Of a DNA stretch of 27,652 nucleotides, positions 699 to 23,732 are shown one piece after another. Origin of the DNA: a virus; IMG/VR virus record IMGVR_UViG_3300035659_000082, positions 1 through 27,652 of that record; one strand, given 5' to 3'. The first letter of the stretch is position 1, and each line of letters begins with the position of its first letter. The notes beneath the pieces are model-generated. The model ran no database searches. It saw only the letters and a program-made list of their open reading frames with translations, and was not told where the DNA came from. The position numbers and the translations under genes were made by a program.

Positions 699-1257
699 GC
701 AGGTCCGACACGACGGTCGGAAGTTGCTGGAGGAAGTCAACTCCAAACCGGTGCGCAACCTGATCCGCTACATACTCAGGACGCACCTGCCACTGACCAA
801 GCATCTGACGTTTACCTTTGGGGAGTGGCGGGGCGGCGCGGATACCGACGTGACCGTGCGGCTGGACGATATAAAGGTGGAGGTCAAGTACCGCTTCCCC
901 GATAGTTTCCGGTATGCGAAACGCGATCTCCTGATGGAGTGTGTTCACCGAACCGACCTCCACACTCCGGGATGGGCGTACTACTCCGACGACGACTACC
1001 TGCTCGTGATCTTCGCCAACGGTCGGTCGGGTTGGGTGTTCCACCTGTTCCGCTGGAAAGGGTGCCTCAAGGATTGGTGGCTTGACCACGCGGCGGAATA
1101 TGCGGATACCGAAAGACCCGCTCTGAATACGAATCTCAGGGGCGAAGATACGACTACCCTCAATCGGTTCGTGCCACTCGGCGACATCCCGATCCGCTTC
1201 GTGGTAGCACTTAACGGTTGGATCGCCGATCCGCGAGCACGGGAGGAAGCGGCATGA
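691..1257 (+). CDS. Unknown protein with PD-(D/E)XK-like EVK motif
   Basis: A 188-residue protein I cannot assign to a named family. The ATG at 691 is chosen because GGAG lies 8 bases upstream and it overlaps the preceding stop by 8 bases; an upstream in-frame start at 643 would lie deep inside the methyltransferase gene. Residues 51-66 read DTDVTV...KVEVKYR. This D-x(n)-E-x-K pattern on adjacent strands recalls the PD-(D/E)XK nuclease core, with aromatic-rich strands after it. A nuclease paired with the methyltransferase just upstream could be a restriction-like pair, but that is inference. The gene ends in an ATGA overlap with a possible start at 1254. Confidence 0.62.
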   Translation: MPEQVRHDGRKLLEEVNSKPVRNLIRYILRTHLPLTKHLTFTFGEWRGGADTDVTVRLDDIKVEVKYRFPDSFRYAKRDLLMECVHRTDLHTPGWAYYSDDDYLLVIFANGRSGWVFHLFRWKGCLKDWWLDHAAEYADTERPALNTNLRGEDTTTLNRFVPLGDIPIRFVVALNGWIADPRAREEAA

Positions 1258-1433
1258 CAGTGAATACTTTGGCCCGCGCTACAGCTTCGTGCAGCACTCC
1301 AACGACCAGCCAAGGGTGCGGGCCTTCAATTTGCCCTGCGCAAGACAACAGAATACCGAGTCGGAGAGCAGATCGAGCGGAGCAGACGCGCGGGGCAATT
1401 CAATTCAGACAAACAGACGAGGAGGCAAACGAG
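1258..1433 (+). other. Intergenic stretch, possible decayed gene
   Basis: No confident gene. The ATG at 1254 is coupled to the upstream stop and has a good ribosome site, but its frame is low-complexity. Two other frames look more like protein: one reads EYFGPRYSFVQHSNDQPRV from about 1263, the other reads FALRKTTEYRVGEQIERS near its 3' end. A gene broken by indels would give this picture, though chance open frames in GC-rich DNA could too. An 11-base helix with one G.U pair (1331-1341 with 1388-1398) is the only clear structure. Confidence 0.3.
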
Positions 1434-1694
1434 ATGATTAAACTGGGAAGCATGGTCCGCGACAAGATCACCGGGTTCGTCGGCATCGCCATCGGGCGTA
1501 CGACGTGGCTCAACGGATGCAACCGGTGGGGCGTTCAGGGGCTGGACCTGCATGAGGGCAGACCAACGGAAGTCGTGTGGATTGACTCGGTGCAGCTTGC
1601 GGTGGTTCCCGACGAGCAGACGCCAGCTACTAAAGCGACCGGGACCGAGGTAGGGGGCCCGCAGCAAGATCCTCCCCCATTGACGGGAGGTTAG
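1434..1694 (+). CDS. Small conserved phage protein (GF.GIA-type)
   Basis: An 86-residue protein. The stretch VRDKITGFVGIAIGRTTWLN followed by NGC.RWGVQGLDL resembles a widespread small phage protein of unknown role, whose members read roughly V.DK.TGF.GI...RT..LNGC..YGV. The start at 1434 follows GAGGAGG at 1418-1424. An alternative start at 1254, in ATGA overlap with the previous gene and behind GGGAGGA, would add 60 residues in the same frame. Those residues are low-complexity and not protein-like, so I prefer 1434. The C-terminus (TPATKATGTEVGG) looks disordered. Function unknown. Confidence 0.72.
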   Translation: MIKLGSMVRDKITGFVGIAIGRTTWLNGCNRWGVQGLDLHEGRPTEVVWIDSVQLAVVPDEQTPATKATGTEVGGPQQDPPPLTGG

Positions 1695-1698
1695 TTTT
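1671..1698 (+). terminator. Weak terminator-like hairpin
   Basis: CCTCCC (1671-1676) can pair with GGGAGG (1685-1690), and TTAGTTTT follows at 1691-1698. The hairpin overlaps the stop of the upstream gene. The stem is short and the T-run is interrupted, so termination is likely to be partial at most. Confidence 0.35.
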
Positions 1699-1835
1699 CG
1701 GCGAAGCCAGGTCGGAGGACTCGCCAGCGTCGGAGGGACCAGTGAGAGGCAAAATCGTTCGGCGACGGTGTACAACGGTGACTGACAAACTAAGGCTTTG
1801 CGCCGAACTACTGGCCTTCGCGTGGTCCCTCCGGC
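1691..1835 (+). ncRNA. Possible divergent third copy of the crossed three-helix RNA
   Basis: Three complementary pairs again appear in parallel order. A is 1691-1697 with 1787-1793 (7 bp). B is 1701-1708 with 1813-1821 (8 bp, one bulge). C is 1729-1741 with 1823-1835 (13 bp, one G.U pair). The A-B gap (3), B-C gap (20) and B'-C' gap (1) fit the copies at 3328 and 6901. The C-A' gap (45) and A'-B' gap (19) do not, though an extra 8-bp helix (1757-1764 with 1801-1808) would shorten them. No promoter is visible just upstream. This is much weaker than the other two copies. Alternative pairings exist, and a protein-like frame (FAPNYWPSRGPSGNQMWTL) overlaps the region. Confidence 0.35.
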
Positions 1836-1910
1836 AACCAGATGTGGACGCTCACGGACGAGCGAGTCTTGCCACGGATGGCACCACCACCTTATCGAGA
1901 GGAGGCGTGA

Positions 1911-2102
1911 ATGCTATACATCGTTCTTGAGGAGGAATGCCCGACCTGTCAGGCGGGCCGAGTCTATGATCCCTCTGTCTGCCCGATCTGCTACGGAGAG
2001 GGATTCGAGGTGAGGCGCTTTAGCTTGTCGGACTTCAAGGCATTGCTGGAGAGTGCGGAGGAGGGCAAAGGCGATGAGACTCCGATTCCAGTTGCGGGTT
2101 GA
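1911..2102 (+). CDS. Small zinc-ribbon-like protein
   Basis: A 63-residue protein with two CxxC knuckles (CPTC near residue 10 and CPIC near residue 24) followed by YGEGFE. This spacing resembles DnaJ-type or rubredoxin-like zinc knuckles. The ATG directly abuts an upstream TGA and follows GAGGAGG. Its C-terminal acidic stretch (SAEEGKGDE) overlaps the start of the next small gene. The role is unknown; such proteins are common in phage accessory regions. Confidence 0.7.
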   Translation: MLYIVLEEECPTCQAGRVYDPSVCPICYGEGFEVRRFSLSDFKALLESAEEGKGDETPIPVAG

Positions 2103-2211
2103 CGAGTTGATGCATCGCGGGGTGCTGTGGCTGGGGCTGATGCTGGCCTGGGCGCTGAGTCCGGGGATAGGCAAACGAGATGTGGAGGCACTAGATGACC
2201 AAAGTGACTGA
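2074..2211 (+). CDS. Small single-pass membrane protein
   Basis: A 45-residue reading frame with GGAGGG upstream of its ATG. It overlaps the preceding gene by 29 bases and the following gene by 17. Residues 14-33 (HRGVLWLGLMLAWALSPGIG) form one hydrophobic helix, with a basic N-terminus and an acidic C-terminus. No family is recognised. The ribosome site and the coupled layout support translation, but the gene is short and could be spurious. Confidence 0.45.
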   Translation: MRLRFQLRVDELMHRGVLWLGLMLAWALSPGIGKRDVEALDDQSD

Positions 2212-2431
2212 AACACAGTGCGATTGCGGATGTGGGGCGTCCACGTCAGACCGCATGACCCTTGGGTGGATTGATCTATGGGTGCGCTCGGCGTTCGTGG
2301 TTGTTGAGACTCTCGGTGACGACGTTGAGGACGTGACGATCATGTTCGAGGACCATTACCACTTCCGCTCTCCTAAGTGCATCACCCGATTCATAACCGA
2401 TGCGATTGCCGACGCGAAGGAGTCGCACTGA
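2195..2431 (+). CDS. Small cysteine-rich protein, tandem paralogue 1
   Basis: A 78-residue protein with an N-terminal CDCGCG cluster and a later SPKCITRF segment that may complete a metal site. It ends ADAKESH, nearly the same as AEAKESH in the next gene. The two also share a D/N-terminal cysteine pair, a central strand region and a late cysteine near RF/RNW, so they look like diverged tandem duplicates. GGAGG precedes the ATG. Function unknown. Confidence 0.7.
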   Translation: MTKVTETQCDCGCGASTSDRMTLGWIDLWVRSAFVVVETLGDDVEDVTIMFEDHYHFRSPKCITRFITDAIADAKESH

Positions 2432-2658
2432 TGAGCAGAGTTGAGGTCTTCAGATGCGACGGTCCCGACTGTTCGGAGTCGTGCGAAGGACAACTGGGTG
2501 ATGGTTGGATCACGGCCACGGGCGGCACAATCACCTTCCTTGCGCGGGATGCCGAGGACAAACATATTCCCAAACCTTCGAGTCATTGGTGCTCGTCTGC
2601 CTGCCTGAGGAACTGGGCCGATATGATGCTCGCCGAAGCGAAGGAGTCGCACTGATGA
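2414..2658 (+). repeat. 21-base direct repeat at two gene junctions
   Basis: The 21 bases at 2414-2434 recur exactly at 2638-2658, and the first 11 bases recur once more near 2789. Each full copy encodes the AKESH C-terminus, carries AAGGAG and supplies the TGATG junction to the next gene. The repeat probably dates from the gene duplication and is kept because it starts the next gene. Confidence 0.8.
2431..2655 (+). CDS. Small cysteine-rich protein, tandem paralogue 2
   Basis: A 74-residue protein that starts in a TGATG overlap with its neighbour. It has cysteine pairs CDGPDC and HWCSSACLRNW, typical of a small zinc-binding fold (the C-terminal WCS.C...W pattern recalls MYM/TRASH-like knuckles). 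Its ribosome site AAGGAG lies in the end of the upstream coding region. Because of a shared 21-base repeat, the same site starts the gene after it. Function unknown. Confidence 0.7.
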   Translation: MSRVEVFRCDGPDCSESCEGQLGDGWITATGGTITFLARDAEDKHIPKPSSHWCSSACLRNWADMMLAEAKESH

Positions 2659-2819
2659 AACCACCTGATTGGACGGGCGCTTTATGCGTCCTTACCGGCT
2701 TGATGATAGCGGCCCTGTTGGGCCTGCTCGTAGATTGGCTACACGAGCGGCGGGCGGCGCGTGAGTATTGGGCGCAGGATCATCGCGGCGAAGGAGTCCG
2801 CAGGAAGGAGCGGCGATGA
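2655..2819 (+). CDS. Small single-pass membrane protein
   Basis: A 54-residue protein. Residues about 8-28 (ALCVLTGLMIAALLGLLVDW) form a transmembrane helix, followed by a highly basic tail rich in arginine. The predicted topology is N-out, C-in. It starts in a TGATG junction with AAGGAG upstream. It is too short and too isolated from lysis genes to call a holin. Function unknown. Confidence 0.6.
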   Translation: MKPPDWTGALCVLTGLMIAALLGLLVDWLHERRAAREYWAQDHRGEGVRRKERR

Positions 2820-2908
2820 CGCAATTCGACAGATAGACCGAGAGCCGCAAGCCCTCACGGGTAGCGGCCCTCAGCGGACAACCCAATTGTCAAAGGAGAT
2901 CATAGACG
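2820..2908 (+). other. Short spacer with hairpin and 12-base repeat
   Basis: A GC-rich hairpin forms from GCCGC and GCGGC around an inner CCC/GGG stem, at about 2846-2874. A 12-base direct repeat (CCCAATTGTCAA) occurs at 2882-2893 and 2916-2927, on either side of the next start codon. The ribosome site AAAGGAG follows the first repeat. No T-run follows the hairpin. Confidence 0.4.
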
Positions 2909-3268
2909 ATGGAATCCCAATTGTCAATACCGATTCAGAACAACGAGACGAACCGCCAGATTCACGCGGCGGTCGAGTGGATCACCAAGTGCCTCGGTAG
3001 GATGGAGACTATCGAGGACCACACCTATCATTACCGCCTCGACGATCTCTCTCTCGTCTGGTGGCGAGATGAGGAATCTTCGACCATCTATCAGGACTTC
3101 CAGGTCCTATTCGCCGGGCGCGGCACGACGTGGACCTTGATTCATGATGGTGATTGGATTGCCAGATTACTGACCTTTGCGGAGGACCAACGGCGACTCG
3201 CCGAGGAGCGCTTTCGCGACGGAGAACAGTTCAGGACCAAGCTCAGGACCGGATACGCCGTGCGCTGA
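2909..3268 (+). CDS. Unknown soluble phage protein
   Basis: A 119-residue protein starting behind AAAGGAG. It has a tryptophan-rich central beta region (LVWWRDEESSTIYQDFQVLF) and a charged C-terminal helix (EDQRRLAEERFRDGEQFRTK). No family is recognised and there is no signal peptide or membrane segment. It is the last gene before the first strong promoter. Confidence 0.65.
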   Translation: MESQLSIPIQNNETNRQIHAAVEWITKCLGRMETIEDHTYHYRLDDLSLVWWRDEESSTIYQDFQVLFAGRGTTWTLIHDGDWIARLLTFAEDQRRLAEERFRDGEQFRTKLRTGYAVR

Positions 3269-3293
3269 CTATGGCGCGTCGTGGGAATTTGGC

Positions 3294-3322
3294 TTGACAC
3301 TACGAGCCGATGGTGATACAAT
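3294..3322 (+). promoter_or_regulatory. Consensus sigma-70 promoter
   Basis: TTGACA at 3294-3299 and TACAAT at 3317-3322 are separated by exactly 17 bases. The -35 box is perfect and the -10 box has five of six consensus bases. Predicted +1 is about 3329, the first bases of the left arm of the structured leader. It should be active with host polymerase alone, which suits early expression. Confidence 0.85.
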
Positions 3323-3327
3323 ATGCC

Positions 3328-3422
3328 TGTCGAGGGAACGAACAAGCCGCCACATACCAAACTCTTTGTGCCTGATCGGGCGAACGTTCCCTCGACAAGA
3401 ACGCGGCTTCCCGGTCGGGCAC
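3328..3422 (+). ncRNA. Structured leader RNA with three mutually crossing helices, copy 1
   Basis: Three complementary pairs occur in parallel order. A is 3328-3340 with 3385-3397 (13 perfect pairs). B is 3344-3350 with 3403-3409 (7 perfect). C is 3368-3380 with 3410-3422 (13 pairs, two of them G.U). The gaps are A-3-B-17-C-4-A'-5-B'-0-C'. Every helix crosses the other two, so this is a pseudoknot, not nested hairpins. The G.U pairs point to function as RNA, not DNA. Transcription should begin at the first base of A. C' ends 20 bases before the HNH start codon and just before its ribosome site, so it may act in cis on translation or as a free RNA. The same layout with different sequence recurs at 6901-7014. 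I do not recognise it as a known RNA class. Confidence 0.72.
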
Positions 3423-3442
3423 ATTCCGTTTGGAGGTATCTG

Positions 3443-3922
3443 ATGACTCTCGAAGAACGGTTTTGGTCGCATGTCAAGAAGGGCGGTCCTGATGAATGCT
3501 GGGAATGCTCAGGTTCCCCGGGACCGGGTGGCTACGGCCGCATTACGATTGGACGAAAAAACATTGCGGCACACCGGATGGCATATCAACTCGCAGTTGG
3601 TCCCATCCCCGACCGTCTCTACATATTGCACTCGTGCGACAATCGAAGGTGCTGCAACCCCGCACATCTACATCCAGGGACTCACCGAGAGAATGCGCGC
3701 GAGGCGGTGGATAGGCTCGGCATGAATTGCGGGGAGCGCAACGGTCAGGCGAAGTTGACCCCTGCGGATGTCCTCGCTATCTGCCAACTCTACGTCCCCA
3801 GGCGCGTAACCTATCGAGAACTGGCGAGCCGATTCGGAGTCTGCCCGATGCAGGTATGTCGGATTGTCCAGGGCGAACGGTGGGCGCGGGTAACCAAGGT
3901 GGCGCATGTGGCCACACGCTGA
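3443..3922 (+). CDS. HNH endonuclease, homing-type, with C-terminal helix-turn-helix
   Basis: A 159-residue HNH_3-type nuclease like the free-standing homing endonucleases found in phages. The core LHSCDNRRCCNPAHL at residues 62-76 supplies the HNH residues (H63, N72, H75) together with cysteines. The upstream YGRITIGRKN..AHRMAYQL strand-helix is typical. The C-terminal part (residues about 107-150, TPADVLAIC...TYRELASRFGV) is a DNA-binding helix-turn-helix. The ATG at 3443 follows TGGAGG; longer in-frame starts would lie in the structured leader. It is expected to cut or nick DNA at a recognised site. It has its own promoter and leader, which suggests an independently acquired unit. Confidence 0.85.
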   Translation: MTLEERFWSHVKKGGPDECWECSGSPGPGGYGRITIGRKNIAAHRMAYQLAVGPIPDRLYILHSCDNRRCCNPAHLHPGTHRENAREAVDRLGMNCGERNGQAKLTPADVLAICQLYVPRRVTYRELASRFGVCPMQVCRIVQGERWARVTKVAHVATR

Positions 3923-4142
3923 CCCCGGAGCCTCCTGGGAGCCTGTGGGTGCCGGTTGGTGGCTCTACACGAAATCTGATGGCGAAGGATATGTCGTCAA
4001 GGGGTTCGACGGGCAATGCAGTTGCTTTGGCTATAAGCGATGGGCGCACTGCAAGCATATTGATTGGCTGGAGGAATATTATGAACAACGGAGATACGAG
4101 CAAGGCGCTCGCGCCGCGCGAAAACGCGGACGAGCTGCGTAG
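3906..4142 (+). CDS. SWIM-type zinc-finger protein
   Basis: A 78-residue protein with the SWIM pattern CxCx(n)CxH in CSCFGYKRWAHCKHI (residues about 38-52), preceded by the usual strand GYVVKGFDGQ. SWIM fingers bind DNA or proteins and occur in recombination-associated factors. The C-terminus is strongly basic. It overlaps the HNH gene by 17 bases and the next gene by 62. The neighbours (directionality factor, Gam-like protein) suggest a role in recombination; that is inference. Confidence 0.75.
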   Translation: MWPHADPGASWEPVGAGWWLYTKSDGEGYVVKGFDGQCSCFGYKRWAHCKHIDWLEEYYEQRRYEQGARAARKRGRAA

Positions 4143-6626: not shown

Positions 6627-6892
6627 TGGGCATCGTAACCCGAATCCAATGCGATGTTTGCGGCGAGGAGGTGCCACCGGGCGGGATCTACCTCGCCATA
6701 AACCGAACGATGGTGGCGGAGATGCCTGCCGGCTCGGGGTCGGGCAGGATCGTCATTGATGATCTCGAAGAGCCAGTCCAGGTCTGTGGCCAGAAGTGTT
6801 ATCACCAGTGGCACGCGCGGAAACTGGCGGAGTTCTACGAGCCGAAGCGGGAGTCTGAAAAAGCGCTTGACAGGGGTGCCGTGGCGGAGTAG
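6626..6892 (+). CDS. Small zinc-knuckle protein
   Basis: An 88-residue protein starting in a TGATG overlap. CDVCGEEV near the N-terminus and VCGQKCYHQWHARKL near residue 55 make a treble-clef-like pair of knuckles, as in small phage zinc proteins. Its last codons contain the -35 region and stop of the second strong promoter, so transcription of the next unit starts inside this gene's end. Confidence 0.68.
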   Translation: MGIVTRIQCDVCGEEVPPGGIYLAINRTMVAEMPAGSGSGRIVIDDLEEPVQVCGQKCYHQWHARKLAEFYEPKRESEKALDRGAVAE

Positions 6893-6895
6893 AAT
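6867..6895 (+). promoter_or_regulatory. Consensus sigma-70 promoter
   Basis: TTGACA at 6867-6872 and TAGAAT at 6890-6895 are separated by exactly 17 bases, the same design as the promoter at 3294. Predicted +1 is about 6901-6902, which is the first base of the left arm of the second structured leader. The promoter overlaps the end of the preceding gene. Confidence 0.85.
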
Positions 6896-6900
6896 GGGGA

Positions 6901-7014
6901 TGGTAAGATCACGATGATAGACAGACGGGTAGCAAACTGCATAACGACACCCCCAGTGCCGGGATTCCAGACTCGTGATCTTACCAATTACCTGTCTGTC
7001 GGAGTTCCGGCACT
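6901..7014 (+). ncRNA. Structured leader RNA with three mutually crossing helices, copy 2
   Basis: The architecture matches 3328-3422, with unrelated sequence in the helices. A is 6901-6914 with 6973-6986 (14 perfect pairs). B is 6920-6931 with 6989-7000 (12 pairs, one G.U). C is 6955-6968 with 7001-7014 (14 pairs, two G.U). The gaps are A-5-B-23-C-4-A'-2-B'-0-C'. The 4-base C-A' gap and the zero B'-C' gap are identical to copy 1. The single-stranded segment between B and C carries CAAACT in both copies (3358-3363 and 6933-6938). C' ends 29 bases before the ATG of the PD-(D/E)XK gene, whose ribosome site lies between them. Two copies with the same fold and different bases are covariation-type support for an RNA structure. 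Confidence 0.72.
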
Positions 7015-7043
7015 TACTTTTGTACGGGGACAAGGAGCCACGG

Positions 7044-7583
7044 ATGGCTGTCAACATCTCCAAGTTTAGTATCCCGACGGAGTTCAACGGCATCCGTTTT
7101 CGCAGTAAGTTGGAAGCAGATTGGGCGGCCTTCTTCGAGCGACACCGAATCATCTACGCCTTCGAGCCGGAGGGATTCGATCTTGACGGTGTGTATTACC
7201 TCCCGGACTTTTGGCTGCCCCGACTCCGCACGTTCGTCGAAATCAAGGGTTGCCTGGACGGGAACGACGAAGCAAAGCTCGAAGCGCTGGCGCGGCACTG
7301 CGCCGATCCGCACGATTGGGAGGATAAGCGCCCACTCCTGATTCTTGCCGAAGCGCCGGTTGGTGAGGAGTTCACGAATCCCTATTGTTCTCCTTCCGGC
7401 TTCTACATCATCTCACGCCGCGCCGGATTGTACCAGTGTCGGAGATGCGGCAACTGGTGGTTCGCGAATCCTTCGGGGCCGCTCAAGTGCCGCGCCTGCG
7501 GCGAGTGGCGGAGTGACGACCACATAACACGGATACACGGATACCACGCCTGCCCGGATTGCGAGGCGCTCTGCGATGCCTGA
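7044..7583 (+). CDS. PD-(D/E)XK nuclease with C-terminal zinc ribbon
   Basis: A 179-residue protein. Residues 17-68 carry the nuclease core in order: FRSKLEADWA (E24), YLPDFWL (D55) and FVEIKG (E66, K68). This is the E-D-ExK arrangement of phage and T7 endonuclease I/Holliday-resolvase-type PD-(D/E)XK enzymes. Cysteine pairs CRRCG, CRACG and CPDC in residues about 131-175 form a zinc ribbon, presumably for DNA binding. AAGGAG precedes the ATG at 7044. It has its own promoter and structured leader and overlaps the primase gene by 8 bases, so the same transcript should continue into the primase. A replication or recombination nuclease, or a mobile endonuclease, are both possible. Confidence 0.78.
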   Translation: MAVNISKFSIPTEFNGIRFRSKLEADWAAFFERHRIIYAFEPEGFDLDGVYYLPDFWLPRLRTFVEIKGCLDGNDEAKLEALARHCADPHDWEDKRPLLILAEAPVGEEFTNPYCSPSGFYIISRRAGLYQCRRCGNWWFANPSGPLKCRACGEWRSDDHITRIHGYHACPDCEALCDA

Positions 7584-12182: not shown

Positions 12183-12494
12183 ATGGCTCTAAACAAGACT
12201 GGGATTGAATATTTGGATCGGAGCTGGAACCCTGCCCACGGCTGCACCAGGGGTTGTGGCTATTGTTGGGCAGCGAAGATGGCGAAGCGCCTGGCGGCGA
12301 TGGGTGTGCGCGGATACGATCCGGCTGACCCGATGAGACCGACGGTGCACCACGAACGATTGCAGGAACCAGCTCGGCTGAATAAGGCGTCATGTATCGG
12401 CGTCGGGTTCATGGGTGATTTGTTTGATCCGGCGTTTTCCGACGAGATCATCTGGCAGGCAGTAGTGGAGGAAATAACGGAGATACGCCCATGA
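12183..12494 (+). pseudogene. N-terminal piece of a Gp37/Gp68 (DUF5131) gene
   Basis: A 103-residue frame behind GAAGGAGGGAG. It matches the start of the phage Gp37/Gp68 family: TGIEYLDRSWNPAHGCTRGC, the CxxxCxxC radical-SAM-like cluster (CTRGCGYC), AKMAKRLAAMG, DPMRPTVHHERL and CIGVGFMGDLFD. Full-length relatives are about twice as long and continue with a FLTKRP-type motif. Here the frame stops at ITEIRP, exactly where the next gene's ATG begins (ATGA overlap). The missing C-terminus reappears downstream at 13158-13280 in the same phase. The fragment keeps the metal cluster and a good ribosome site, so a short product may still be made. Confidence 0.78.
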
Positions 12495-13885
12495 GGCTGC
12501 TCGATCTCTTCTGCGGAGCTGGTGGCGCAGCCAAGGGATACCAACGTGCGGGATTCTATGTCGTCGGCGTAGATAATCGCCCTCAACCACGCTACTGCGG
12601 AGATGAGTTCTACCAGGCCGACGCCCTGGAGTTCGTGGCCGAGCACGGTAAGGAGTTCGACGTGATCCACGCGAGTCCGCCGTGCCAGGCATACAGCCGG
12701 ATATCCGGCAGATGTCGCAAGGCGGGCAGGAGGATATACCCGGAGGTTATAGAGGCGACGCGACAGGCGCTCAGGTGTGTTGGCGTGATCTACGTCATTG
12801 AGAACGTGCCGGAAGCCCCGCTGGAGCGGTCTCTGGTCCTCTGTGGCTCCTCCTTCGGGCTGGATGTGCGTCGCCACAGGGTCTTCGAGTCAAACGTTCT
12901 GATGCTGGCGCCAGTGTGCGAGCACTCAAGGCAGTCGCCTCGGTTCCGTACGTTGGACAACCGGCGCAAGGGCAGGCTGGCGTGCGTGGTGGGCGTTCAC
13001 GGGCATGTCAACTATAAGGGCGAAGCTAGATTGCGCGAGGGCGCTATGGGCGTTGACTGGATGACGGTAGCCGAACTAGCCCAAGCGATCCCGCCAGCGT
13101 ATACCGAGTTTATCGGCAAGCAACTGATGGCTATGCTCGACACAACCGAACAACCCGCCGGACTCGTGGTGGGTGAAGACACTGATCGGATACGCGAGGA
13201 AGGAGGGGATTCCCGTCTTCCTGAAGCCCAACGCCAACTATCGCGAGATGATCCAGGAGTTCCCGGAGGCACAGCGATGAGCACGGTTATCCTTGGCCTC
13301 GACCCCGGCGCCAGTACCGGATTCGCCAAATGCACCTTCCAGGGCGAGACCGTGACGATACTCGACTATGGAATCGTGCCTATGCCTGGTGATGATGTGG
13401 CCTCGCTGGCGAGAGGGATCTCCTGGTGGATTCAGCATAACCACCTGCCCGGGCTCACGATGGTCTTCAGCGAGATTCCCTATCTGCCGAAGCGCCGGAC
13501 CCATCTCCCTTCTGTCGAGGTCCAGGGCGTGATCCGGGCAGCCGGCGGGATCGGTTACAATCCGATGACCATCCACTCGCAGCTCGGGACCAGGCGTAAG
13601 GCGGACACAAAGGCATTCGTCAAGCGCGTGCTTGGCTTCTCCCCGACGGGGATTGACCACATAGCCGATGCCTTCGCCGTCTGCTTCTGCCACGCGCTGA
13701 AGATCGGAGTCTGGCAGCCGCATCTGAAGGCGGCGCCGGTGAAAACTCACCAGCCTGGTTTCAAGGCCGGCCGAGCCCGCGGAGAGCGTGAGCCAGTGAA
13801 AACTCACCAGGAGGATATGACGCAGGAGGAACTGCGCGAGGCATTATTCAGCGGAGAGGCGAGAGTGGCGGGTGGAGGGCGATAG
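12491..13885 (+). CDS. C5-cytosine DNA methyltransferase, reading in frame into RuvC-like resolvase
   Basis: A 464-residue open frame. Residues 1-216 are a compact but complete C5 methyltransferase: LFCGAGG (motif I), SPPCQ with catalytic C65 (motif IV), ENV at 104-106 (motif VI), RRHRVF near 127 (motif VIII), a short target-recognition region, and IPPAYTEFIGKQL (motif X). A natural end is expected near residue 217. Instead the frame runs through about 46 residues that look like out-of-frame sequence and then into the resolvase at 13277. The joining stretch is the remnant of the Gp37/Gp68 C-terminus read in the wrong frame. Either a fusion protein is made or the resolvase is started separately. 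The ATG overlaps the Gp37/Gp68 fragment's stop and has only a GGAG-type site. Confidence 0.82.
   Translation: MRLLDLFCGAGGAAKGYQRAGFYVVGVDNRPQPRYCGDEFYQADALEFVAEHGKEFDVIHASPPCQAYSRISGRCRKAGRRIYPEVIEATRQALRCVGVIYVIENVPEAPLERSLVLCGSSFGLDVRRHRVFESNVLMLAPVCEHSRQSPRFRTLDNRRKGRLACVVGVHGHVNYKGEARLREGAMGVDWMTVAELAQAIPPAYTEFIGKQLMAMLDTTEQPAGLVVGEDTDRIREEGGDSRLPEAQRQLSRDDPGVPGGTAMSTVILGLDPGASTGFAKCTFQGETVTILDYGIVPMPGDDVASLARGISWWIQHNHLPGLTMVFSEIPYLPKRRTHLPSVEVQGVIRAAGGIGYNPMTIHSQLGTRRKADTKAFVKRVLGFSPTGIDHIADAFAVCFCHALKIGVWQPHLKAAPVKTHQPGFKAGRARGEREPVKTHQEDMTQEELREALFSGEARVAGGGR
13158..13280 (+). pseudogene. C-terminal remnant of the split Gp37/Gp68 (DUF5131) gene
   Basis: In the phase of the 12183 fragment, and different from the methyltransferase frame, this stretch reads PPDSWWVKTLIGYARKEG, then IPVFLKPNANYREMIQEFPE and a stop at 13278-13280. 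The pattern W...(I/L)...R..G(I/V)PVF.K......EFP is the usual end of Gp37/Gp68 proteins. There is no start codon of its own, and a stop lies at 13125-13127 in this phase. Homology appears to begin near 13140, just after the methyltransferase's expected end. The TGA overlaps the ATG of the resolvase, as expected of the original gene order. Confidence 0.75.
13277..13885 (+). CDS. RuvC-like Holliday-junction resolvase
   Basis: A 202-residue protein starting at an internal ATG with GGAGG 8 bases upstream. It has the RNase-H-like catalytic set of phage RuvC relatives: GLDPGASTGFA (D9), VFSEIPYLP (E66) and GIDHIADAFAV (D127/D131 with H128). These enzymes cut four-way DNA junctions before packaging or during recombination. 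The start overlaps the stop of the Gp37/Gp68 remnant (ATGA), so separate translation is likely even though the upstream methyltransferase frame runs in without a stop. The basic C-terminal tail contains a repeated PVKTHQ. Confidence 0.78.
   Translation: MSTVILGLDPGASTGFAKCTFQGETVTILDYGIVPMPGDDVASLARGISWWIQHNHLPGLTMVFSEIPYLPKRRTHLPSVEVQGVIRAAGGIGYNPMTIHSQLGTRRKADTKAFVKRVLGFSPTGIDHIADAFAVCFCHALKIGVWQPHLKAAPVKTHQPGFKAGRARGEREPVKTHQEDMTQEELREALFSGEARVAGGGR
13739..13810 (+). repeat. 15-base direct repeat, each copy self-complementary
   Basis: GTGAAAACTCACCAG occurs at 13739-13753 and 13796-13810, encoding VKTHQ twice in the resolvase tail. Each copy also forms a small GTGA/TCAC hairpin. The in-frame spacing of 57 bases and repeated peptide suggest a short internal duplication. 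Confidence 0.6.
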
Positions 13886-21912: not shown

Positions 21913-22071
21913 ATGACGATGACTCACTACCAGCACCACTGCCGGAGCTGCGGGCACTACTGGCGTTCCCCCGATCGACAGTCGAAATGTCCAAACTGTG
22001 GCAAGGAGAGCCGAATCAAGGGGCATGACTTCCGACGCCCCGATCTTATCCAGAAGGGGGCGAAGAGATGA
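21913..22071 (+). CDS. Small zinc-ribbon protein
   Basis: A 52-residue protein with CRSCGHYW and CPNCGKES, a classic two-knuckle zinc ribbon, and a basic tail ending in GAKR. It starts 10 bases after the terminator's T-run and ends in an ATGA overlap with the protease gene. The role is unknown; a small regulator of the head genes is possible. Confidence 0.65.
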   Translation: MTMTHYQHHCRSCGHYWRSPDRQSKCPNCGKESRIKGHDFRRPDLIQKGAKR

Positions 22072-23732
22072 AGGACAACGGAGGGCTGCCGCAGGTCTAC
22101 CGTTATGTCACGCAGGTCCACGCCAAGGCGTTGACGCTGACGGACAAGGACATCGCGGCGATTCAGGAACGGGCGTTGACGCAGCTCGACCCCGAGAGCA
22201 TCTGGGCGAGAGAGTTCTACATCGCCAACGACCAGGTTGACCGCCACTTCGAGCACTTCGACCGCGGGCACTTGCAGCGGTTCGCGGACACCCTGGTGGA
22301 CAAGAGCCTCCTGATCGGCCACGAATACGAGGGCCGGATGGCCGAGGGCTTGTTCTACAAGGCGCGCACTGGCCGAGAGCAGGGCGTCCTGTGGACACTG
22401 GGAACTGCCTACACCATCAAGACCGCGGCCAACGAGCACATCCGGGCGTTGGTGGACGGCGGGGTGCAGAGGTACGGCTCGATTGGGTTCAAGCCCGACT
22501 GGGCAGCGGCCTTCTGCGATATCTGCGGGCTACCCTACTATATGCCCGGCAAAGAGGGCGACTGGTGCGAGCACTTTGCGGGCGAGGCATACGACGGCGA
22601 GGTCTGCACGGTCGCTTGGAACTGGAAGAAGGCCCGGCCAGAGCAGGTCGAGGCTTACGAATACAGTTTGGTCTACCTTGGCTCCCAGTATGGGGCGGGG
22701 CCGAAGAAGGGGGCCGAGGACGACGAGTTGGCGATGCTGGACGCCGGGATAGTCCCGGCGGCAGCGCGCAAGTCAGCACTACTGCCAGAGCGAAAGAAGG
22801 TGATGCTTGTGAAAGACAAAGAGCTGACGGACATAAAGGGAGCGGTTCCGGTTCACAGGCCGAAGACGGCGGACCGGGAACTGGCGTGGGACGGCAGCAA
22901 GGCCGTCTCTGATCTCAAGGCATTCGCTGGAGGGCCGGACAAGGCCGACGTTGACTGGGCGAAGTACCGACAGGGCTTCGCGTGGTTCGACGGCGAGGCG
23001 GCGGAGGACTTCGGGAGCTACAAACTGCCCCACCACTACGTCGAGGATGGGGCGCTGGTCACGGTCTGGAGTGGCGTCACGGCAGCCGGCGCCGCGGTTC
23101 AGGGCGCACGGGGCGGTGTGAACATCCCAGAGGGCGACATGGAGGGCGTGAAGCGTCACCTTGCGGCGCACTACGCGCAGTTCGAGGAGACGGCTCCTTG
23201 GGACCAGCAGGGGGATGCGGCTGATGCTGCGGACGATCCGCCGAACCCGCAGACGCAGGATACCGACGACGCCTTGAAAGCGATGTTCGTGCAGACAGCG
23301 ACCGAGCGAGACGCAGCCATCGCCGAGCGCGACGTGGCGCTTGCCGGCCTGGAGAAGTCAACCGAGGCGGTCGGCGATCTGATCGCTCAGGTCGAGCAGA
23401 AGGGCCGAGAGCTTGCGGACTCCGAGGCTCGGATCGCCGAGGCGGTCGGCGATCTGATCGCTCAGTTGGAGCCAACGGCGGCTTTGGCGGACTCCCTGCT
23501 CGCTGAGCGCAAGGCCGAGGTCGAGCGCAAGGCAAAGGCTTCCGGGGTTGACGAACTGATCGGCGACCTCGGAGCCGTGACCGATCTGGAGCGGCTGCAC
23601 GAGGTCGAGAAGGCCGTGAGCGCAGCCTTTGACGAGAAGTTCCCGCCGCAGGGCAGGGCGAAGATACCCGGCCCGGGCGAGGATACGAAGGAAGTGGCGG
23701 CGGATGTCGTGATCGGCGGGCCGCCGAGATAG
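22068..23732 (+). CDS. Prohead protease fused to scaffold-like coiled coil
   Basis: A 554-residue protein in the protease position directly before the decoration and capsid genes. The N-terminal about 220 residues (REFYIANDQVDRHFEHFDRG, LVDKSLLIGHEYEGRMAEG, YGSIGFKPDW) resemble phage prohead proteases, with an added cysteine cluster (FCDICGLPYY, DWCEHF). Residues about 260-380 are the module often attached to such proteases (FGSYKLPHHYVEDGAL, ARGGVNIPEGDMEGVKRHLA). Residues about 400-510 form a long coiled coil, the likely scaffold, with an internal repeat. I cannot assign the catalytic Ser and His with certainty. Confidence 0.75.
   Translation: MKDNGGLPQVYRYVTQVHAKALTLTDKDIAAIQERALTQLDPESIWAREFYIANDQVDRHFEHFDRGHLQRFADTLVDKSLLIGHEYEGRMAEGLFYKARTGREQGVLWTLGTAYTIKTAANEHIRALVDGGVQRYGSIGFKPDWAAAFCDICGLPYYMPGKEGDWCEHFAGEAYDGEVCTVAWNWKKARPEQVEAYEYSLVYLGSQYGAGPKKGAEDDELAMLDAGIVPAAARKSALLPERKKVMLVKDKELTDIKGAVPVHRPKTADRELAWDGSKAVSDLKAFAGGPDKADVDWAKYRQGFAWFDGEAAEDFGSYKLPHHYVEDGALVTVWSGVTAAGAAVQGARGGVNIPEGDMEGVKRHLAAHYAQFEETAPWDQQGDAADAADDPPNPQTQDTDDALKAMFVQTATERDAAIAERDVALAGLEKSTEAVGDLIAQVEQKGRELADSEARIAEAVGDLIAQLEPTAALADSLLAERKAEVERKAKASGVDELIGDLGAVTDLERLHEVEKAVSAAFDEKFPPQGRAKIPGPGEDTKEVAADVVIGGPPR
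23362..23465 (+). repeat. 29-base direct repeat in the scaffold coiled coil
   Basis: The 29 bases at 23362-23390 recur exactly at 23437-23465, offset by 75 bases (25 codons). Both copies encode EAVGDLIAQ in the coiled coil. Perfect identity suggests a recent internal duplication that changed the scaffold helix length by about 25 residues. Confidence 0.85.

Follow-up and report, generated by a model that had tools for sequence, protein, structure and literature searches.

Homing endonuclease expression in T4-like phages is tightly controlled by RNA structure, and hairpins that sequester the ribosome binding site have been described for I-TevI, segB and mobE of Aeh1 (PMC2988022). The leaders analysed here are similar in that an RNA structure immediately precedes a homing endonuclease gene of a phage and is thought to restrain its expression. 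However, the T4-type elements are simple hairpins that form only on long early transcripts and are absent from the late-promoter transcript, whereas each of our leaders has a dedicated promoter, the transcript from which would always carry a three-helix pseudoknot and a terminator-like end.

The type III toxin-antitoxin systems (ToxIN, TenpIN, CptIN) and AbiF/RCd22 have a comparable layout, in which a promoter is followed by an RNA that is pseudoknotted or otherwise structured, then by a hairpin resembling a terminator (a prediction for the leaders) and a protein gene. The type III antitoxins are tandem repeats and form H-type pseudoknots, whereas the leaders are present as a single unit per promoter, with no tandem repeat among those listed for the window (the whole 27,652-nucleotide stretch of DNA analysed), and have the arm order ABCABC. 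The downstream proteins also differ, being ToxN-like endoribonucleases or AbiF in those systems and DNA nucleases of several superfamilies here. Since tandem repeats and ToxN-like proteins are both absent, the leaders do not qualify as type III systems.

Two further systems share individual features. The put element of phage HK022 (PMC9378689) is likewise structured, located at the 5' end of a phage transcript and present more than once per genome. put is composed of two stem-loops without long crossing helices. It acts in antitermination, which has not been shown for the leaders. The HEARO/omega RNAs of IscB/TnpB are structured RNAs beside a mobile nuclease gene, and one leader, at locus L157, does precede tnpB. 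Membership of that group is nevertheless not met, as there is no Rfam match in the window and TnpB is the partner of only one of ten clear copies; unlike HEARO/omega, the leaders lie directly 5' of their genes with their own promoter and terminator-like end, and are also found before HNH_3, GIY-YIG and PD-(D/E)XK nucleases.

The topology itself has been named: ABCABC is the class 1C genus-1 'pseudotrefoil', to which 51 RNAs in RNA STRAND belong (PMC3390330), and the arm order of the leaders is identical, so that they meet the definition. The pseudotrefoil is, however, a topological class and not a family, whereas the leaders have helices of 6–22 pairs, a 5' end fixed by the promoter and a T-rich 3' end.

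Architecture of the two leaders in the window

The virus record that makes up the window is 27.6 kb long, and its genes include those for terminase, portal, capsid, primase and methylase. Three disjoint helices in the order A-B-C-A'-B'-C' are present at two places, 3328–3423 (copy 1) and 6901–7014 (copy 2), and the positions of their arms are given in Table 1. When the window was searched for this order, requiring at least 11 bp for A and C and at least 7 bp for B, exactly these two places were found on the + strand (three matches in all, copy 2 having an alternative B), and there were none on the reverse strand or in 130 dinucleotide shuffles. The two copies have little sequence in common. 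Their arms never overlap, B' and C' are separated by no nucleotides, C and A' by 4 nt, and A and B by 3 or 5 nt; in plan, the segments A-B, C-A' and B'-C' bring the inner ends of the three helices together as a three-way junction.

Table 1. Positions of the promoters, leader helices and downstream genes in the window.
Feature	Positions	Strand	Remarks
Sigma-70 promoter 1	3294–3322	+	TTGACA-17-TACAAT with TGn extension; 11/12 consensus
Copy 1 helix A, 5' arm	3328–3340	+	13 bp; predicted +1 at 3328/3329
Copy 1 helix B, 5' arm	3344–3350	+	7 bp
Possible extension of copy 1 helix C (CCAAAC)	3357–3362	+	pairs with 3428–3433; would cover two Shine-Dalgarno bases
Copy 1 helix C, 5' arm	3367–3380	+	14 bp, 2 G.U
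Copy 1 helix A, 3' arm	3385–3397	+	
Copy 1 A'-B' linker (AGAAC)	3398–3402	+	homologous leaders have a similar linker (GACA-ARGAA)
Copy 1 helix B, 3' arm	3403–3409	+	
Copy 1 helix C, 3' arm	3410–3423	+	abuts B' directly
Copy 1 T-rich tail	3424–3433	+	5/10 T, weak terminator-like; last bases overlap Shine-Dalgarno
Shine-Dalgarno of copy 1 gene (GGAGG)	3432–3436		
HNH_3 endonuclease gene	3443–3922	+	behind copy 1; homing-type, C-terminal helix-turn-helix
Sigma-70 promoter 2	6867–6895	+	TTGACA-17-TAGAAT; 11/12 consensus
Copy 2 helix A, 5' arm	6901–6914	+	14 bp
Copy 2 helix B, 5' arm	6920–6932	+	13 bp, 2 G.U
Copy 2 helix C, 5' arm	6955–6968	+	14 bp, 2 G.U
Copy 2 helix A, 3' arm	6973–6986	+	
Copy 2 helix B, 3' arm	6988–7000	+	
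Copy 2 helix C, 3' arm	7001–7014	+	
Copy 2 T-rich tail	7015–7024	+	6/10 T
Shine-Dalgarno of copy 2 gene (AAGGAG)	7032–7037		
PD-(D/E)XK nuclease gene	7044–7583	+	behind copy 2; phrog_21138, Holliday-junction-resolvase profiles

The summed helix energies, with the initiation penalty included in each, are −60.7 kcal/mol for copy 1 and −66.2 kcal/mol for copy 2, some 20 kcal/mol lower than the −40.6 and −44.8 kcal/mol, respectively, of the best nested folds. These sums were taken before any pseudoknot or loop penalty, and the formation of all three helices at once in one molecule is an inference.

The predicted promoters preceding the two copies are the two best sigma-70 sites on the + strand of the window, and a pattern describing the promoter-leader unit matched at these two places only, with no match in 100 shuffles. 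Helix A begins 5–6 nt past the −10 box in the window copies (4–10 nt in the scans described below), which puts the predicted +1 at the first or second base of A. Starts at 3328/3329 and 6901/6902 are thus inferred, and of each pair the G (3329 and 6902) is favoured by the standard spacing. The promoter is upstream of the entire structure in every copy that we found.

A preliminary description, made from the sequence alone, had assigned copy 1 three crossing helices of 13, 7 and 13 bp with two G.U pairs in helix C and a transcript beginning at the first base of helix A. All six arms held at the positions it gave, as did the G.U pairs, with helix C one pair longer (3367/3423) than claimed; the start held as the first or second base, as predicted from the promoter. 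Its further remark that it knew of no RNA class with this layout and these long helices is qualified by the topology, which is named and has precedents. Rfam 15 gave no match in the window, a relaxed search returning only a chance match to mir-182 (E 0.4). The leader RNA was also not found in the open-access literature searched. What is already known is the topology, and structured leaders restraining homing nucleases as a kind of role; what appears to be new is the RNA family, together with its link to homing-type nucleases and its presence in several copies per genome.

Several other features of the window were recorded. The gene at 2909 has CCCAATTGTCAA twice about its start (2881–2930), beside an 11/12 sigma-70 promoter on the minus strand (TTGACA-17-TATGAT, 2927–2899); this may be an operator or an antisense start. 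A 27-nt repeat (2408–2434 and 2632–2658, 96% identical) lies over the Shine-Dalgarno/start codon of consecutive small genes, and a 36-nt direct repeat (23362–23397 and 23437–23472, 94%) is found within the large open frame 22068–23732. The single open frame at 12491–13885 begins with a match to C5 DNA methyltransferase, and its second half matches a RuvC-like resolvase.

Related leaders and their covariation

Close relatives of the window phage are rare. Only one was recovered (L056, with 80% TerL identity), in which the available sequence starts at TerL, and searches with the primase, PD-(D/E)XK and portal proteins gave nothing beyond it and no upstream region. Its portal/MuF homologue (930–3950) has an insertion of approximately 270 aa towards its C terminus, bounded by intein-like ends (..VVSSN/C), that is absent from the protein of the window. 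Because of this scarcity, loci were instead collected around relatives of the HNH, TerL and PD-(D/E)XK proteins. The resulting 3.55 Mb, containing 4830 promoter-like sites, was scanned for stacked stems, allowing small internal loops, with helix A starting 4–9 nt past a promoter-like −10 box.

Eight sites, of which six are distinct, scored −65 or lower: copy 1, copy 2, L162 (= L227), L208 (= L209), L286 and L157. At this cut-off one shuffle of the whole scan set gave no site and seven others gave 0, 1, 2, 2, 2, 1 and 3. Between −50 and −60 the real set had no clear excess over the shuffles, and matches in this range were therefore ignored unless there was other evidence for them. To the six we added L238, upstream of a PD-(D/E)XK gene, with helices of 9 (A), 6 (B) and 15–22 bp (C); L155 and L237 are looser forms.

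Reading of the whole records of the hit phages revealed further copies in the phage that carries L162 (G003), at L339 minus 6967 and L339 minus 8904, and a covariance model of helix C, derived from four leaders, located a fourth, L337m, on the minus strand of L337 at approximately 2379–2530, with A of 16, B of 9 and C of 21 bp. The A'-B' linker of this last copy is 0. An idea that the linker offsets the difference in length between A and B, which is true of the two window copies, fails here and was dropped. The phage with the TnpB-associated copy (G004) has in addition a looser one, at L341 minus 17359, whose helix C is 20 bp and is followed by TTTTTTG. Overall, the promoter-leader unit is present in five other virus records, one of which has four, giving ten clear and four looser copies.

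No further leader was found among the TerL relatives or the HNH relatives of P0001, which gave only low-complexity repeats, or beside the HNH homologue of a huge phage. Isolated phages yielded no leader either; the nuclease homologues retrieved from them sit within operons without a separate promoter region, and blastn of leader DNA against isolated phages gave no meaningful match.

Two other structured leaders were noted. At L190, approximately 150 nt before a PD-(D/E)XK gene and after TAGTATAAT, there is a related but different leader of two hairpins whose loops kiss via ACTTCCCC/GGGGAAGT, the second hairpin having a 17–18 bp stem followed by TTTTTT. At L225 (position 5270, + strand) a consensus promoter is followed by a strongly structured leader, upstream of a zinc-finger-like gene, that contains a 13 bp helix (CGCGGTGGGG.../CCCCACCGCG) and has a fold that is not clearly ABCABC.

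Covariation was assessed in four leaders, three from G003 and one from the L238 phage, aligned with plain MAFFT and not fitted to any structure. Without the structure being supplied, the two strongest column-wise stems were the mutually crossing C (22 columns) and A (9 columns). Over all three helices, 91.8% of cells were paired compared with 40–46% when the partners were slid, there were 23 doubly changed pairs compared with 2–4, and the covariation score was 0.612 compared with 0.09–0.18. Changes on both sides were seen in 10 of the 15 pairs of helix A and 13 of the 22 pairs of helix C. Helix A often has GUC...GAC at its outer end, at the start site, and ARGAA often follows A'. Helix B is present in all copies; it is nearly invariant in this alignment (UUUGCC/GGCAAA, off by one column in L339b) and varies only among more distant copies, the B helices of copy 1, copy 2, L157, L286 and L337m being unrelated. 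Four aligned sequences are few, and three are from a single phage.

That the leader is a real RNA family with three conserved crossing helices is well supported, their simultaneous folding being inferred. The RNA-level reading of the preliminary description is thus supported by compensatory change. It would have been refuted by homologues lacking such change; homologues were found, and the changes are present in the crossing helices A and C. Its hope of compensatory change in all three helices is met for A and C, B varying only across distant copies. It had overlooked the nuclease genes that follow, the end resembling a terminator and the occurrence in several copies and several phages.

Nuclease genes and the 3' ends of the leaders

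All ten clear copies precede nuclease genes, and the families represented are several and unrelated: HNH of two types, PD-(D/E)XK, GIY-YIG/T5orf172 and TnpB. HNH_3 proteins are encoded behind copy 1, L162 and L286, and PD-(D/E)XK-like proteins behind copy 2 and L208. For the latter protein of the window, the AlphaFold model is of low confidence (pLDDT 61), and its top Foldseek matches, Bax1 and VSR endonuclease, are weak and fit at superfamily level only. Among the G003 copies, the protein downstream of L337m is a zinc-finger HNH, that of L339 minus 8904 has T5orf172/MUG113 domains (E 1.6e-14), and that of L339 minus 6967 (L339a) has a GIY-YIG-like motif by eye without a family match. The L157 product is TnpB by its Cas12f1-like TNB domain, the NCBIfam guided_TnpB profile falling below cut-off. 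In this locus (940–2593), a phage tnpB has both a near-consensus sigma-70 promoter of its own and a 5' leader that is structured.

As loci were gathered around nuclease genes, the association is partly a consequence of sampling. Each of the six distinct scan sites lies 60–300 nt upstream of a nuclease gene start, against a background of 44 in 4830 sites, and in scans of whole records eight of nine leaders precede nuclease-like genes (one of the eight by motif only). These comparisons reduce the sampling bias and do not remove it. A strict nuclease-only rule has one possible exception, since the looser L341 copy precedes an unrecognised primase-like protein of 240 aa.

The ten bases after C' contain 5–8 T in the seven copies measured, a content reached by 0.7–8% of the surrounding 10-mers, and T-rich runs also follow C' in L155, L237 and L190. 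The GC-rich helix C followed by a T run resembles an intrinsic terminator; termination itself is inferred. The terminator-like end is strong in L157 and L238. The T tract is weak in copy 1 (TTCCGTTTGG) and broken in copy 2, so that termination there may be poor.

The start codon lies 7 to approximately 45 nt past C' in most copies. Sequences resembling a Shine-Dalgarno (GGAGGG or GGGGGG) are located within C' in L337m and L208, with ATG 7–8 nt further on, and in both window copies the Shine-Dalgarno is outside the perfect helices. The leaders showed no alternative pairing of the antiterminator type and hence no switch is evident.

Possible roles of the leader

Our preferred reading, to which we give a probability of only roughly 0.48, is that the leader acts in cis to limit nuclease expression through terminator-like attenuation combined with shielding of the start site. 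This function is inferred, and there are no expression data. Counting against it are the poor T tracts of the window copies and the position of their Shine-Dalgarno, the lack of an evident switch, and the gene behind L341, which is not recognised as a nuclease. Transcription would begin with the first pair of helix A and, as the RNA emerges, A would close a loop of 44–58 nt, into which B' and C' would pair back to give a compact knot resembling a three-way junction, flush with the end of helix C. Helix C and the T-rich tract would then look like an intrinsic terminator, with C' directly upstream of the start site or, in L208 and L337m, holding the Shine-Dalgarno. Given the terminator-like C and the position of C' at the start site, the folded leader would most probably limit both readthrough and translation, and the promoter, otherwise very strong, would then yield only little of a homing-type nuclease that may be harmful. 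Termination or repression, and any relief of either, remain inferred.

The alternative that survives best, and remains possible, is that the leader is a noncoding RNA of approximately 100–150 nt acting in trans on its nuclease as an inhibitor, cofactor or guide, with helix C and the T tract serving as a terminator that sets the ratio of RNA to nuclease, as in type III toxin-antitoxin systems and AbiF. The layout shared with those systems is in its favour (PMC5086642, PMC12373285), as are the pairing of most nucleotides and the conservation of fold, not sequence, among the copies of one phage. Against it, the nucleases come from unrelated superfamilies (HNH, GIY-YIG, PD-(D/E)XK, TnpB), which makes one common RNA shape binding all of them hard to picture; there are also no tandem repeats, and sequences differ among the several copies of a single phage.

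It is unlikely that the leader is a put- or nut-like element, in which the nascent knot, with or without a phage factor, makes polymerase ignore downstream terminators. The location exactly at predicted transcript 5' ends, the several copies per genome at separate promoters (two in the window, four in G003) and the single strand shared by all downstream window genes are compatible with this. However, the known antiterminator RNAs of Rfam gave no match by sequence or by structure, the leaders end in a terminator-like element of their own, and they are associated with nuclease genes and not with long operons generally.

Similarly doubtful is a role as a 5'-end protector, whereby a paired +1 and the knot would block pyrophosphohydrolase and 5'-3' exonuclease to give a long-lived nuclease mRNA. 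5'-terminal stems stabilise mRNA, and in nearly all copies the predicted +1 is where helix A begins, but a plain hairpin would suffice, leaving B, C, the T-rich tail and the nuclease association unexplained.

Finally, although simultaneous folding has not been shown, it is very unlikely that the helices never coexist, whether as mutually exclusive pairings or as a repeat at the level of DNA, for instance an operator for the nuclease, as the arms are non-overlapping, follow closely on one another (B' and C' without a gap) and include G.U pairs, A and C both covary within the same homologues, and the helix sums beat the nested folds by the margin given above, pseudoknot penalties excluded.

A bolder reading, which is no more than possible, is that a pseudotrefoil class of small RNAs is the shared physical partner of selfish nucleases from unrelated superfamilies, as inhibitor, cofactor or targeting scaffold, and spreads with them as a promoter-RNA-nuclease cassette.

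The association of the leader with nuclease genes of unrelated families makes it possible to test how phages or nucleases restrain homing-type enzymes placed under very strong promoters. Long, mutually crossing helices are kept by covariation in several unrelated phages, at up to four per genome, in an RNA that searches for nested structure would miss. The leader is also a natural, short RNA in which the co-transcriptional formation of a knotted fold may be studied.
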